A stretch of DNA of 64,000 bases, from NCBI RefSeq assembly GCF_024054195.1, contig NZ_JAMXLB010000001.1:1141646-1205645 (forward strand). The letters run 5' to 3'. Source of the DNA: Flavobacterium sp. NRK F7 (GTDB lineage: Bacteria > Bacteroidota > Bacteroidia > Flavobacteriales > Flavobacteriaceae). The notes under the pieces were generated by a model that worked only from the letters and a program-made list of their open reading frames with translations, was not told where the DNA came from and did not search any database. How positions within the stretch are numbered: the first letter of the stretch is position 1; every line of letters begins with the position of its first letter. This document shows, piece after piece, positions 2,763-7,477 of this stretch. The position numbers and the translations under genes are program-made.

Positions 2763-2813
2763 ATTATTTATATAGTAGTTAAATAATGAGGCACGCAACG
2801 CGTGCCTCTTTTT
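2763..2813 (+). promoter_or_regulatory. Two-hairpin leader with terminator-like second stem, upstream of rimP
   Basis: The first hairpin pairs ATTATTTA (2763-2770) with TAAATAAT (2780-2787) around a 9-base loop. The second starts at the very next base: GAGGCACGC (2788-2796) pairs perfectly with GCGTGCCTC (2800-2808) around a 3-base AAC loop, and is followed by five T residues (2809-2813). That is the form of an intrinsic terminator, lying between the promoter and the rimP start at 2822. Because this operon encodes NusA, a factor acting on RNA polymerase pausing and termination, the likely role (inference) is attenuation or autoregulation. Alternatively the stem only protects the 5' end or shapes translation initiation. 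Confidence 0.6.
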
Positions 2814-2821
2814 ATAAAAAT

Positions 2822-3289
2822 ATGACATTTAAAGAGGAAGTAAATCAATTGTTGCACAAAGCGCTTGAAGAGCGCCCTTCGCTTTTTTTGATTGATTTAA
2901 AAGTAGATGATGCCTATAAAATTAATATTATTTTAGATGGCGATAAAGGAGTTACTTTGCAAGATTGTATCGATGTGAATCGTGCTATAGATGCTAGTTT
3001 AGATGCCGAAAAATATGATTTTAGTATTGAAGTGGCTTCAGCAGGACTTTCGAGTCCGCTAAAGTTGGTGAGGCAGTATAAAAAGAATATTGGTCGTAAT
3101 TTAAAAGTAAAAACAACTTCTTCTGAAGAAATTGAAGCCTTACTTACTGCTGCCGATGATAATGGTATTACATTAGAATGGAAAGCAAGAGAACCAAAAA
3201 AAATCGGAAAAGGGAAAGAAACAGTAGAAAAATCTGTAAATTTGCCTTATTCTGAAATTAAAGAAGCTACAGTAATAGTATTATTTTAA
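2822..3289 (+). CDS. rimP: Ribosome maturation factor RimP
   Basis: RimP assists assembly of the 30S ribosomal subunit. I chose the ATG at 2822, giving 155 residues beginning [11 protein letters not shown], the usual length for this family. An in-frame ATG at 2786 would add 12 residues encoded by the leader hairpin and is unlikely to be used. The N-terminal alpha/beta domain contains [20 protein letters not shown] and the family segment [14 protein letters not shown] (compare the EVSSPGxxxPL consensus), followed by a C-terminal SH3-like domain. It is the first gene of the conserved rimP-nusA-infB operon, with nusA 13 bases downstream. Confidence 0.92.
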
Positions 3290-3302: not shown

Positions 3303-4541
3303 ATGGAAAATATTGCGTTAATAGAATCGTTTTCAGAATTTAAAGACGATAAGCTCATAGATAGAGTTACCTTAATGGCAATTTTAGAAGATGTGTTTAG
3401 AAATGCATTGAAGAAAAAATACGGTTCAGACGATAATTTCGATATTATTATCAATCCTGATAAAGGAGATATGGAGATTTGGAGAAATAGAACTGTTGTT
3501 GAAAATGGAGAGGTTGAAGATGAAAACTCTGAGATTTCATTAGCAGATGCAAGAAAAATTGAGCCCGATTTTGAAGTTGGTGAAGAGGTATCTGAAGAAG
3601 TGAAGTTGTTTCAATTAGGAAGAAGAGCTATTTTAGCACTTCGTCAAAACTTGATATCCAAGATTCATGAACATGATAATACCAATCTATATAAACAATT
3701 TAAAGATTTGGTTGGCGATATTTATACTGCAGAAGTGCATCATGTTAGACCAAAAATGGTTGTTTTGATGGATGATGATGGGAATGAAATAGTATTGCCT
3801 AAAGAAAAACAAATTCCAAATGATTATTTCAAAAAAGGAGATAATGTAAGGGGAATCATTGAGAGTGTTGAACTAAAAGGAAACAAGCCTCAAATTATGA
3901 TGTCGAGAACCGCTCCTGAATTTCTTGAGAAATTATTTGAACAAGAAATACCTGAGGTCTTTGATGGTTTAATCAATGTTAAGAAGGTGGTGAGAATTCC
4001 TGGTGAAAAAGCAAAAGTAGCTGTGGATTCTTATGATGATAGAATTGATCCAGTAGGAGCTTGTGTGGGAATGAAAGGTTCTCGAATTCATGGTATCGTT
4101 CGTGAGTTAGGAAATGAAAATATTGATGTAATTAATTATACCAACAATGTTCAATTGTATATTACAAGAGCATTAAGTCCTGCTAAAGTTTCTTCCGTTA
4201 AAATTGATGAAGAAACTAAAAAAGCAGAAGTATTTTTAAAAGTTGAAGAAGTTTCTAAAGCCATTGGTCGTGGAGGATATAATATCAAATTAGCAAGTTT
4301 ATTAACGGGTTATGAGTTGGATGTTATTAGAGAAGGTGTTGTTGAAGTTGACGACGTAGAATTAAGAGAGTTTTCAGATGAAATTGATGCTTGGGTAATT
4401 GAAGAATTTGAAAAGATTGGTTTAGATACAGCAAGAAGTGTTTTAGGTCAGGATGTAGAAGATTTAGTAAGAAGAACTGATTTAGAAGAAGAAACAATAT
4501 TAGATGTTATTCGAATTTTAAAAGAAGAATTAGAAGATTAA
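3303..4541 (+). CDS. nusA: Transcription termination/antitermination factor NusA
   Basis: 412 residues. The order is an N-terminal polymerase-binding domain (about 1-130), an S1 domain (about 135-200, starting near GDIYTAEVHHVRPKMVV) and two KH domains, recognisable from VGACVGMKGSRIHGIVREL and from the later GRGGYNIKLASLL. The protein stops soon after the second KH domain with an acidic tail (EEETILDVIRILKEELED) and lacks the AR repeats of gammaproteobacterial NusA, as is usual in Bacteroidota. NusA binds RNA polymerase and nascent RNA and tunes pausing and termination. It is co-transcribed with rimP and infB. The terminator-like hairpin in the operon leader is a natural candidate for control by NusA itself. 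Confidence 0.96.
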   Translation: MENIALIESFSEFKDDKLIDRVTLMAILEDVFRNALKKKYGSDDNFDIIINPDKGDMEIWRNRTVVENGEVEDENSEISLADARKIEPDFEVGEEVSEEVKLFQLGRRAILALRQNLISKIHEHDNTNLYKQFKDLVGDIYTAEVHHVRPKMVVLMDDDGNEIVLPKEKQIPNDYFKKGDNVRGIIESVELKGNKPQIMMSRTAPEFLEKLFEQEIPEVFDGLINVKKVVRIPGEKAKVAVDSYDDRIDPVGACVGMKGSRIHGIVRELGNENIDVINYTNNVQLYITRALSPAKVSSVKIDEETKKAEVFLKVEEVSKAIGRGGYNIKLASLLTGYELDVIREGVVEVDDVELREFSDEIDAWVIEEFEKIGLDTARSVLGQDVEDLVRRTDLEEETILDVIRILKEELED

Positions 4542-4596: not shown

Positions 4597-7428
4597 ATGT
4601 CTGACAAAAGAGTTATAAGAATCAATAAAGTTTTAAGGGAGTTAAACATTTCTCTAGATAGAGCTGTGGACTTTTTAAAAGAAAAGGATCATGAAATTGA
4701 AGCAAGTCCAAATGCTAAAATATCTCAAGAGGAATACGATGTCTTATGCAGTCAATTTTCTGCCGATAAAGGCAAGAAAGTAGCCTCTCTTGAAGTAAGT
4801 GAAGAAAAGAAAAAAGAGAAAGAAGCGCTTAAAAAAGAGCTAGAAAAAGAGGTTGAAATTAAACGTCAGCATGAAGAACTGCAAAAACAAGAAGTAATTA
4901 AAGCAAGAGCTTCTTTAGCAGGTCCTAAAGCGGTTGGAAAAATCGATTTAAATCCAAAAAAGGTAGAACCTAAACAAGAAACTCCCGTTGTTGAGGAAAA
5001 ACCTGTCGTTGTTGAAGAACAAAAAGAAGAACCAAAAGTGGTGGCTGAAGAGCAGCCTAAAGTAGCGCCTGAAAAACCAGTTTTGAAGACAGTTGAAAAA
5101 GCGGTTGAAAAGGCTGAGCAACCTAAAGTGGTTACTAATTCTTCTGTTGAGAAAAACAATCCAACTCAAGAATCTACTGAGGATGATAAAATTGCAACCA
5201 ATTATCAAAAACTTTCTGGAGCTACTTTTACTGGACAAAAAATTGATTTAAGTCAGTTCAATAAGCCTAAAAAGAAAATTGAACCACGTAAAGATATTAA
5301 AAAACCAGGGGATGCTAAAGGACCTAATGTAGGTGGAGCAAATAGCAGCAATAATAATAACAATTCGAATAAGAATAAGAGAAAGAGAATAACAAAACCA
5401 GTTCCTGGTGCAAATAATAATAACGCTACAGGACCCCAAGCTGGTGGAGGCGTTAAAAAAGATTTCTCTAAAGATCGTTTTAATAAAGGTAAAAAAGTTG
5501 TTGTTCAAAAAACGGAACCAACTGAAGAAGAAGTAAAAAACCAAATTAAAGAAACTCTTGAAAGACTTCAAGGGAAAGGTAAAAAAGGTTCTAAAGCGGC
5601 TAAATATAGAAAAGATAAAAGAGAATCACACCGTCAGCGTGTTGATGATGAGTTACAACAACAGGACTTAGAAAGTAAAATCTTAAAAGTAACCGAGTTT
5701 GTAACTGTAGGTGAGATTGCCTCTTTAATGGATGTGCCAATTACAAAAGTGATTGGAACGTGTATGTCACTTGGAATTATGGTTACCATGAATCAACGAT
5801 TAGATGCTGAAACATTATCAATTGTTGCGGATGAATTTGGTTATGAAGTAGAGTTTATTACAACGGATATTGAAGAAGCTGCAGAAGTTATTGTAGATAA
5901 TCCAGAAGATTTAGTACATAGGGCTCCAATCGTAACGGTAATGGGCCACGTAGATCATGGTAAAACATCTTTATTGGATTATATTCGTAAAGAAAATGTT
6001 ATCGCTGGGGAGTCTGGTGGAATTACCCAACATATTGGTGCTTATGGTGTAGAATTAGATAACGGACAAAAAATTGCTTTCTTAGATACTCCTGGTCACG
6101 AAGCCTTTACGGCAATGCGTGCTCGTGGTGCTCAAGTTACAGATATTGCTATTATAGTAATTGCTGCTGACGACGATATCATGCCACAAACGAAAGAGGC
6201 GATTAGTCATGCACAAGCTGCTGGAGTACCCATGATTTTTGCCATTAATAAAGTGGATAAGCCAACCGCAAATCCAGAAAAAATTAAAGAAAAATTAGCA
6301 GGAATGAATCTGTTAGTAGAAGATTGGGGTGGTAAATACCAATCTCATGATATTTCTGCTAAAACAGGTTTAGGAGTAAAAGAATTATTAGAAAAAGTAT
6401 TGTTAGAAGCTGAAGTTCTAGAATTAAAAGCGAATCCAAATAGAAATGCTCTAGGAACGGTTGTAGAAGCGCAATTAGATAAAGGACGTGGTTATGTAAC
6501 TACCATTTTAGTACAAGCGGGTACTTTGAAAATTGGAGATTATATGTTGGCAGGTAAAAATCATGGTAAGATTAAAGCTATGTTTGATGAGCGTGGACAT
6601 AATGTTACAGAAGCTGGACCTTCAACACCGGTATCAATTTTAGGTTTGGATGGAGCTCCTACTGCCGGTGATAAATTCAATGTATATGATGATGAAAGAG
6701 AGGCGAAACAAATTGCTGCAAAAAGAACGCAATTGCAACGTGAGCAATCGGTTCGTACGCAAAAGCACATTACATTAGCAGAAATTGGTCGTCGTATTGC
6801 TTTAGGTCAGTTTAAAGAATTAAACATAATTTTAAAAGGAGACGTAGATGGATCGGTAGAAGCGTTATCGGATTCCTTCTCTAAATTGTCTACCGAAGAA
6901 ATTCAAATTAATATTATTCACAAAGGTGTTGGTGCCATCACTGAATCGGATGTATTATTAGCGTCTGCTTCTGATGCAATTATTATTGGGTTTAACGTGC
7001 GTCCGCAAGGAAATGCTAAAGCATTGGCTGAGAAAGAAGAAATTGATATCCGTAATTATTCTATTATTTATGCAGCTATCGATGATTTAAAAGATGCCAT
7101 GGAAGGAATGCTTTCACCAGAATTAAAAGAAGAAATTACAGGTACTGCTGAAATTCGTGAGTTATTCAAAATTTCTAAAGTGGGAACTATTGCTGGATGT
7201 ATGGTTACTGATGGTAAGATTTACCGAAATTCACAAATCCGTTTGATTCGAGAAGGGGTGGTTATCTACACGGGGGAATTAGCTACTTTAAAACGTTTTA
7301 AAGATGATGTTAAGGAAGTGTCAAAAGGATATGATTGTGGTATGCAGATTAAAAACTACAACGATCTTAAAGAGCTAGACTTAATTGAAGCTTTCCAAGA
7401 AGTAGAAGTGAAGAAAAAATTGAAATAA
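4597..7428 (+). CDS. infB: Translation initiation factor IF-2
   Basis: 943 residues. An IF2 N-terminal helical module (about 4-50) is followed by a long charged Lys/Glu/Val/Pro-rich linker and an Asn/Gly-rich low-complexity stretch (about residues 245-290). A second IF2-N module lies at about 367-420. The GTPase domain begins near residue 440 with the P-loop GHVDHGKT (450-457), DTPGHEAF and NKVDK. Beta-barrel and C-terminal domains that bind initiator tRNA complete the protein. IF-2 delivers formyl-Met-tRNA to the 30S subunit and promotes subunit joining. It lies 55 bases after nusA and is followed by a strong terminator. Several opposite-strand frames over the repetitive linker are shadows. 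Confidence 0.97.
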   Translation: MSDKRVIRINKVLRELNISLDRAVDFLKEKDHEIEASPNAKISQEEYDVLCSQFSADKGKKVASLEVSEEKKKEKEALKKELEKEVEIKRQHEELQKQEVIKARASLAGPKAVGKIDLNPKKVEPKQETPVVEEKPVVVEEQKEEPKVVAEEQPKVAPEKPVLKTVEKAVEKAEQPKVVTNSSVEKNNPTQESTEDDKIATNYQKLSGATFTGQKIDLSQFNKPKKKIEPRKDIKKPGDAKGPNVGGANSSNNNNNSNKNKRKRITKPVPGANNNNATGPQAGGGVKKDFSKDRFNKGKKVVVQKTEPTEEEVKNQIKETLERLQGKGKKGSKAAKYRKDKRESHRQRVDDELQQQDLESKILKVTEFVTVGEIASLMDVPITKVIGTCMSLGIMVTMNQRLDAETLSIVADEFGYEVEFITTDIEEAAEVIVDNPEDLVHRAPIVTVMGHVDHGKTSLLDYIRKENVIAGESGGITQHIGAYGVELDNGQKIAFLDTPGHEAFTAMRARGAQVTDIAIIVIAADDDIMPQTKEAISHAQAAGVPMIFAINKVDKPTANPEKIKEKLAGMNLLVEDWGGKYQSHDISAKTGLGVKELLEKVLLEAEVLELKANPNRNALGTVVEAQLDKGRGYVTTILVQAGTLKIGDYMLAGKNHGKIKAMFDERGHNVTEAGPSTPVSILGLDGAPTAGDKFNVYDDEREAKQIAAKRTQLQREQSVRTQKHITLAEIGRRIALGQFKELNIILKGDVDGSVEALSDSFSKLSTEEIQINIIHKGVGAITESDVLLASASDAIIIGFNVRPQGNAKALAEKEEIDIRNYSIIYAAIDDLKDAMEGMLSPELKEEITGTAEIRELFKISKVGTIAGCMVTDGKIYRNSQIRLIREGVVIYTGELATLKRFKDDVKEVSKGYDCGMQIKNYNDLKELDLIEAFQEVEVKKKLK

Positions 7429-7445
7429 GAAATTTCATTTGATAT

Positions 7446-7477
7446 AAAAAACCAAGCGATTTTAGCTTGGTTTTTTT
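7446..7477 (+). terminator. Terminator of the rimP-nusA-infB operon
   Basis: ACCAAGC (7451-7457), a 7-base loop, and GCTTGGT (7465-7471), extended by flanking A and T runs and ending in a T-tract. Confidence 0.85.

Follow-up and report, generated by a model that had tools for sequence, protein, structure and literature searches.

A conserved terminator-like hairpin ahead of rimP-nusA-infB in Flavobacterium, a probable NusA-feedback attenuator with counterparts in most sampled Bacteroidota

The passages of PMC2965389 on rimP leaders (Naville and Gautheret 2010) describe leaders with a terminator and no visible antiterminator, and name NusA as the best candidate. In B. subtilis, as summarised in a section of the review PMC12288461, NusA-stimulated intrinsic termination in the leader limits transcription of nusA. 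In the rimP leader of Streptococcus agalactiae, a predicted intrinsic terminator ends transcription only 31 nt from its start, and NusA feedback is proposed in the relevant part of PMC4448216. For F. psychrophilum, PMC9723704 reports a structured 5' element ahead of rimP that occurs in further Flavobacteriaceae genera and gave no Rfam hit; the same paper places a TAnnTTTG box at -12 to -5 in this species. Here we describe a leader hairpin (P2) of Flavobacterium which, with its T-run, is probably a promoter-proximal intrinsic terminator attenuating the rimP-nusA-infB operon under NusA feedback. The window, i.e. the whole stretch of 64,000 nucleotides of DNA that was analysed, carries the following features at this locus.

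2750-2757, + strand: promoter box of the Bacteroidota -7 type, TATATTTG (TAnnTTTG), read from the sequence
2762, + strand: probable transcription start (G), 5 nt past the last G of the -7 box by the rule in PMC9723704
2763-2787, + strand: P1, weak A-U stem at the RNA 5' end, accessory and lineage-specific (sequence, RNAfold)
2788-2808, + strand: P2, terminator-like hairpin GAGGCACGC-AAC-GCGTGCCTC (sequence, terminator scan, RNAfold, covariation)
2809-2816, + strand: T-run and tail, TTTTTATA; expected 3' end of the terminated RNA of about 52-55 nt
2822-3289, + strand: rimP, 155 aa (Pfam PF17384 and PF02576 above cut-off)
3303-4541, + strand: nusA, 412 aa, proposed sensor and main target (Pfam NusA_N, KH_5)
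4597-7428, + strand: infB, encoding IF2 (Pfam IF-2, IF2_N, GTP_EFTU)
7446-7476, + strand: ordinary terminator 3' of infB, counterparts of which in relatives served as drift control (terminator scan)

In P1, ATTATTTA (2763-2770) pairs with TAAATAAT (2780-2787), giving 8 bp around a 9-nt loop, and in P2, GAGGCACGC (2788-2796) pairs with GCGTGCCTC (2800-2808), giving 9 perfect pairs, 7 of them G-C, around the loop AAC. P2 abuts P1 with zero bases in between and is followed by TTTTT (2809-2813) and, 8 bases on, by the rimP ATG at 2822. If transcription starts at G2762, one base before P1, the whole leader would be 60 nt long. The original prediction, that two abutting hairpins, the second terminator-like, make up the entire leader, was exact, coordinates and RNAfold being in agreement. 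RNAfold returned precisely P1 and P2 at -18.2 kcal/mol, as compared to -7.8 ± 2.4 kcal/mol for dinucleotide shuffles (z -4.3; 0 of 200 shuffles equally good); P2 alone folded at -14.5 kcal/mol, and the 5' part carrying P1 reached no more than -2.2 kcal/mol on its own. A terminator scan picked up P2 as well, with 13 sites in 12 kb against 6.4 ± 2.8 in shuffles, P2 being counted on both strands, so that a consensus match to a terminator alone would prove little. By a loose pattern, each of the 83 distinct leaders parsed from Flavobacterium had a box of the -7 type (L051 was left out, as its contig begins within the leader). An in-frame ATG at 2786 would add 12 residues to RimP through the hairpin (2786-2821); it was rejected as the start because its frame is lost in relatives, in which the hairpin-to-ATG distance ranges from 11 to 16 nt.

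The hairpin and T-run were seen in the window and in all of the best 80 of 308 relatives; the closest rimP relative among the records returned was F. profundi, with 97% protein identity. Besides L051, the rows left out were L086, L087 and L090 (unanchored by the pattern) and L153 (no tblastn match). In the covariation alignment of 82 leaders (77 distinct rows), 97.7% of P2 cells were paired. Five inner pairs of P2 carried changes on both sides, including columns 39-51 (GC in 40 rows, CG in 37) and 41-49 (AU in 38, CG in 37), and the outer GAGG/CCUC at the stem base was invariant, save that 2 rows differed at the outermost pair. Double-sided changes affected 103 cells of P1 and P2 together, 2 of which were in P1, as compared to 41 in shuffles, and RNAalifold on the genus leaders returned P2 only. 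The tail following P2 was TTTTTATA in 78 of 81 leaders, TTTTTTAT in 2 and TTTTCATA in 1. P2 had a pair probability of at least 0.987, with no competing fold, in 79 of 79 Flavobacterium leaders analysed (4 of the 83 were omitted: L053 was misanchored and in the others the box-to-hairpin gap exceeded 32). Neither RNAalifold nor the folds of these 79 leaders revealed a classic antiterminator or a conserved competing structure 5' of P2. The alignments confirmed that P2 is a real conserved element.

A covariance model of the leader (R1) had its top score at rimP in 60 of 61 Flavobacterium genomes, the rimP places being matched by eye, and in the only miss the contig begins inside rimP. Fourteen of the 61 genomes, including the window's own, had contributed a sequence to R1, and since the model was built partly from the same genus, the matches in those 14 are by construction. 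The weakest rimP match (G016, E 0.0013) was hardly better than the best match elsewhere (G013, E 0.0021), and the next-best match in the window's own genome (E 0.08) was an A-run/T-run terminator. A dispersed repeat was rejected, the exact hairpin being at one place in the genome; a loose hairpin pattern was found at rimP in 13 of 13 genus genomes, and at one more place in 3 of these. On L251 of genome G013, a Flavobacterium, three near-identical hairpins GAGGTAGGCA..TGCCTACCTC with a T-run, preceded by TTATTGAATAGATTAACC, lie at about 186, 1642 and 3097, that is, about 1455 nt apart; they resemble the rimP leader and are sited elsewhere.

P1 was paired in 92.7% of cells in the same alignment, with changes that were nearly all one-sided wobbles, and its covariation score (0.157) did not exceed that of shuffles (0.155). 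The stem was lost or mismatched in one Flavobacterium clade (the L008 group), and a mostly paired 5' part was found in 62 of 79 Flavobacterium leaders as compared to 6 of 53 parsed leaders of other Flavobacteriaceae. On these alignments P1 is outside the core device, an optional Flavobacterium add-on which perhaps keeps the A-rich 5' strand off the U-tract or protects the 5' end. The two hairpins had originally been taken for one device, for which covariation and retention in relatives were put forward as the check; P2 passed it and P1 largely failed, so that the one-device claim was not supported. As an addition to the main explanation, P1 might still tune pausing, termination or decay at P2 in Flavobacterium, a proposal we make tentatively. 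It draws on the pairing of P1 in most Flavobacterium leaders, flush on P2 at the RNA 5' end, on one-sided wobble changes that preserve this pairing, which sliding the partner destroys, and on the recurrence, by eye, of a short 5' stem of other sequence in another Flavobacteriaceae clade; the shuffle-level covariation, the loss in the L008 clade, the rarity outside Flavobacterium and a 5' part averaging only about -1.5 kcal/mol count against it. The 5' stem of the other clade (L123, L136, L139, L184, L192 and L198), seen by eye, is GRATA/TATTC, lies 2 bases before the hairpin and differs from P1 in sequence.

Other genera of Flavobacteriaceae were represented by 68 leaders (28 loci and 40 more), taken from 117 matching genomes that included two of Flavobacterium. 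Their stems were exactly GAGGGGAC..GTCCCCTC in 51, GGGGAC..GTCC in 10 and different in 7, and P2 probability was low in 2 of the 53 parsed leaders (L173 and L203), 15 of the 68 being unparsed. A wider set of 137 leaders comprised these 68 and 69 from other families. A single hairpin of -8 kcal/mol or below with a T-run was present in 128 of the 137 leaders (64 of 69 outside Flavobacteriaceae), as compared to 57 of 376 background segments of flanking DNA, from which segments with a GAGG..CCTC match had been removed. By eye, most of the 9 leaders missing the cut show a weaker hairpin or an interrupted T-run. A terminator score, at 30, separated the two less cleanly, being reached by 84 of 137 leaders against 79 of 794 background segments, a background filtered in the same way that also contains true terminators; a mono-nucleotide shuffle, which is a weak control, gave 0 of 685. 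The stem sequence differs between families, and among the 64 leaders outside Flavobacteriaceae GGG in the 5' arm went with CCC in the 3' arm in 33 and the reverse in 25. Judged by position only, nusA followed rimP at a distance of at most about 1.5 kb in all but one of 138 loci, and in the exception the contig ends near rimP. Two terminator-like hairpins in tandem were visible by eye before rimP in L227, L228, L240, L244, L245, L160, L168 and L233, and the tandem hairpins of some families recall an arrangement of this kind reported in Gammaproteobacteria.

The control consisted of the terminators 3' of infB in 19 genomes from other genera and 20 from Flavobacterium, with one hairpin-picking rule for all. 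Mean identity of the 5' arm was 0.37 (other genera) and 0.45 (Flavobacterium) for infB terminators and 0.79 for the 68 other-genera leaders, the rule having picked another hairpin in L189 and, in L209, a poor one; for leaders in the 17 genomes common to both sets it was 0.89. Leaders picked by motif (GGGGAC pattern, 58 of 68) gave 0.88, a value inflated by selection, and infB terminators 0.38 and 0.57. By arm identity, the leader terminator is sequence-constrained beyond ordinary terminators. Four or more of the five bases preceding the stem were A in 15 of 19 and 16 of 20 infB terminators as compared to 2 of 68 leaders; the leader terminator is thus devoid of the A-run with which it would work in both directions. 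With no A-run before the stem, and a T-run broken after five T, the strength of P2 is uncertain. Conservation of the stem beyond what a terminator needs suggests that something else reads its sequence, and bears on the question of how NusA chooses its terminators. Possibly, though we hold this doubtful, the GAGGGGAC/GTCCCCTC stem, nearly unchanged in Flavobacteriaceae where ordinary terminators drift, doubles as terminator and operator, its sequence being read by NusA (KH or S1 domains) or by the polymerase; the device would then be an ancestral, nusA-tied NusA sensor of Bacteroidota that outlasted rimP losses in three families, P1 being a later Flavobacterium addition.

Genomes devoid of rimP provided a natural comparison. 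Pfam RimP_N was present in 374 of 392 Bacteroidota genomes and missing in 18, and 3 of 120 Flavobacteriaceae had no RimP match, none of them with RimP_N above cut-off. NusA was sought in all 21 genomes of the rimP-less set, and the start of nusA was readable in 13: one Flavobacteriaceae genome (G063), eight of family f30 and four of family f54. The 8 not counted had no NusA match (G150, G329, G428, G472 and G525) or a NusA cut at the contig end (G503 and G528), or were set aside (G097). RimP_N was absent from all sampled members of f30 (G283, G340, G375, G464, G490, G522, G530 and G545) and of f54 (G448, G483, G556 and G560). A hairpin with T-run was found 5' of nusA in 13 of the 13 readable genomes, in 11 of which a script placed it 68-172 nt from the nusA match; in the other two (L291 and L308) it was picked by eye. 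Examples are GAAGGGGGACATTGTCCCCTTC in G063, where the T-run is interrupted, TGGGCTCACAAAAGCCCA in f30 and GGCGCTCCTAAAAGCGTC in f54, and GGGC..GCCC was seen by eye in all 8 rimP-less f30 leaders. Their energies ranged from -6.6 to -12.2 kcal/mol, and five of the 13 were weaker than -8 kcal/mol (-6.6 to -7.3), a level which 76 of 376 background segments reach at a cut of -6 kcal/mol. There is no room for rimP between the hairpin and nusA in these loci; a strongly diverged RimP may lie elsewhere. As members of the same family are non-independent and three separate families are involved, we infer three independent losses of rimP.

Since the hairpin is kept before nusA without rimP, RimP is needed neither as sensor nor as first gene. 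The natural losses thus suggest that nusA (or infB) is the target of the element. IF2 may be an alternative sensor, infB following nusA wherever it was detected, namely in 6 of the 13 rimP-less loci within the short stretch examined. Among the data compared here the rimP losses discriminate best; they fit a NusA feedback by intrinsic termination and argue against RimP as sensor. They also bear on a fixed early terminator or pause, which would give constant low output or insulation against read-through and would not sense NusA at all. The absence of a visible regulatory partner sequence and the folding of P2 without competition are what such a fixed element would show. We nevertheless consider it unlikely: insulation would be costly directly after the operon's own promoter, the gene product is pointed to by the link between hairpin and nusA operon throughout the phylum as sampled and by the retention in all 13 readable rimP-less genomes, and the sequence constraint is above that of infB terminators.

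The position of the hairpin relative to its neighbours gave further information. In the 64 of 68 Flavobacteriaceae leaders parsed by pattern, the box-to-hairpin distance was 26.8 nt (sd 2.8), whereas 19.5 nt (sd 17.7), and at most about 110 nt, separated the hairpin from the beginning of the rimP match. In L171, L189 and L205, for instance, the hairpin is near the promoter and 68-112 bases separate it from the rimP match. Being fixed to the promoter and variable with respect to rimP, the hairpin therefore fits a transcriptional device; for a device that acts on the start codon, the opposite pattern of spacing would be expected. A translational or mRNA-stability element, i.e. a hairpin to which RimP, IF2 or a ribosomal protein binds, or one protecting the mRNA, is thus very improbable, for although the hairpin of Flavobacterium ends only 11-16 nt before the rimP ATG and its invariant stem base suggests a binding site, the rimP gap widens in other genera at a nearly fixed promoter gap, the T-run is conserved, and the element persists before nusA where RimP is dispensed with.

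The NusA-feedback model needs the fewest additional assumptions for the Flavobacterium leader. The polymerase would start at about 2762 and reach P2 at about +27, and some polymerases would stop at about +52, releasing a short RNA (about 52-55 nt). NusA, itself encoded by the operon, would strengthen hairpin-dependent pausing and termination, so that high NusA would result in less read-through and low NusA in more. The terminator itself would be the sensor, and an antiterminator would be unnecessary. The sequences establish how the leader is built, that P2 covaries, that most relatives sampled in the phylum have such a hairpin, that its position is fixed to the promoter and that it is kept before nusA without rimP; from these findings we infer termination in vivo, its partial nature and its modulation by NusA. 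Autoregulation by attenuation before the nusA operon had been suggested at the outset; a terminator-like attenuator there, with NusA feedback as its likeliest role, is supported, P2 showing covariation as well as conservation well outside the genus. The accompanying idea, that the short room at the 5' end demands an unusual mechanism, was not borne out: the rimP-leader passages of PMC2965389 include leaders without antiterminator, termination at 31 nt is reported for S. agalactiae, and NusA-stimulated termination is reviewed for B. subtilis. NusA helps to decide where transcription stops, and a brake on its own gene would be a basic control loop of the cell. The data suggest that this loop is widespread in Bacteroidota, in Flavobacterium with a leader of 60 nt and no switch partner, a compact system in a phylum with promoter and translation signals unlike those of model bacteria.

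Comparison with Rfam families revealed no match at the leader at E up to 5. The Gammaproteobacterial rimP leader RF01770 belongs to the same operon, but its covariance model is unmatched here; its only match between 1500 and 4000 (1753-1823, sub-gathering score) is the end of a tRNA-Gln and its terminator. This part of the window, in which tRNA-Gln (TTG, 1709-1780) is followed by a strong symmetrical terminator (1781-1812), attracts many sub-threshold Rfam leader matches. Flavo-1 is a family in Rfam. At the leader there was no match to Flavo-1, which is mentioned in the text of PMC9723704. Among the matches listed, titles and abstract openings of the open-access literature gave no description of this attenuator in Bacteroidota, and the word rimP is absent from the transcriptome paper on B. 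thetaiotaomicron (PMC7366714). The main text of PMC2965389 has no word beginning with Bacteroid or Flavobacter, and its supplement may include Bacteroidota species.

The original prediction had regarded nothing similar as known in Bacteroidota, which the mention of a structured element 5' of rimP in PMC9723704 contradicts. The F. psychrophilum element is at the same place in the same genus and is very probably the element of the window, which has thus probably been published already as a transcribed structure; the section on 5' cis-regulatory RNAs, unlike the present analysis, gives no structure, terminator role or NusA link, and the word nusA is absent from the main text of that paper. The rimP leader as portrayed in the main text by Naville and Gautheret shares with ours the terminator hairpin and T-stretch 5' of rimP-nusA-infB, the lack of an antiterminator and the G-rich 5' arm, as in most Flavobacteriaceae leaders, but its signature GGGc(...)gCCC is missing from the window stem GAGGCACGC/GCGTGCCTC. 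Among leaders above the hairpin cut, 64 were from Flavobacteriaceae and 64 from other families; GGGC..GCCC occurred in 1 of the former and 7 of the latter, and a 5' arm with GGG was combined with a 3' arm with CCC in 52 and 33 of them, respectively. As this signature was not found, the leader is a variant working like the rimP-leader and no strict member. The NusA leader of B. subtilis, as reviewed, also has a terminator in the leader of a transcript carrying nusA, which here is judged by position only, and is longer (180 nt, as cited in a passage of PMC2965389, vs 60 nt). The S. agalactiae leader, as far as the section on it goes, is alike in its very early termination and differs in belonging to another phylum and in having RNA evidence, the evidence here being that of sequence. 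What is new here, as compared to these systems, is the anatomy of the leader, its covariation, its reach in the phylum, its promoter-fixed position and its persistence without rimP.
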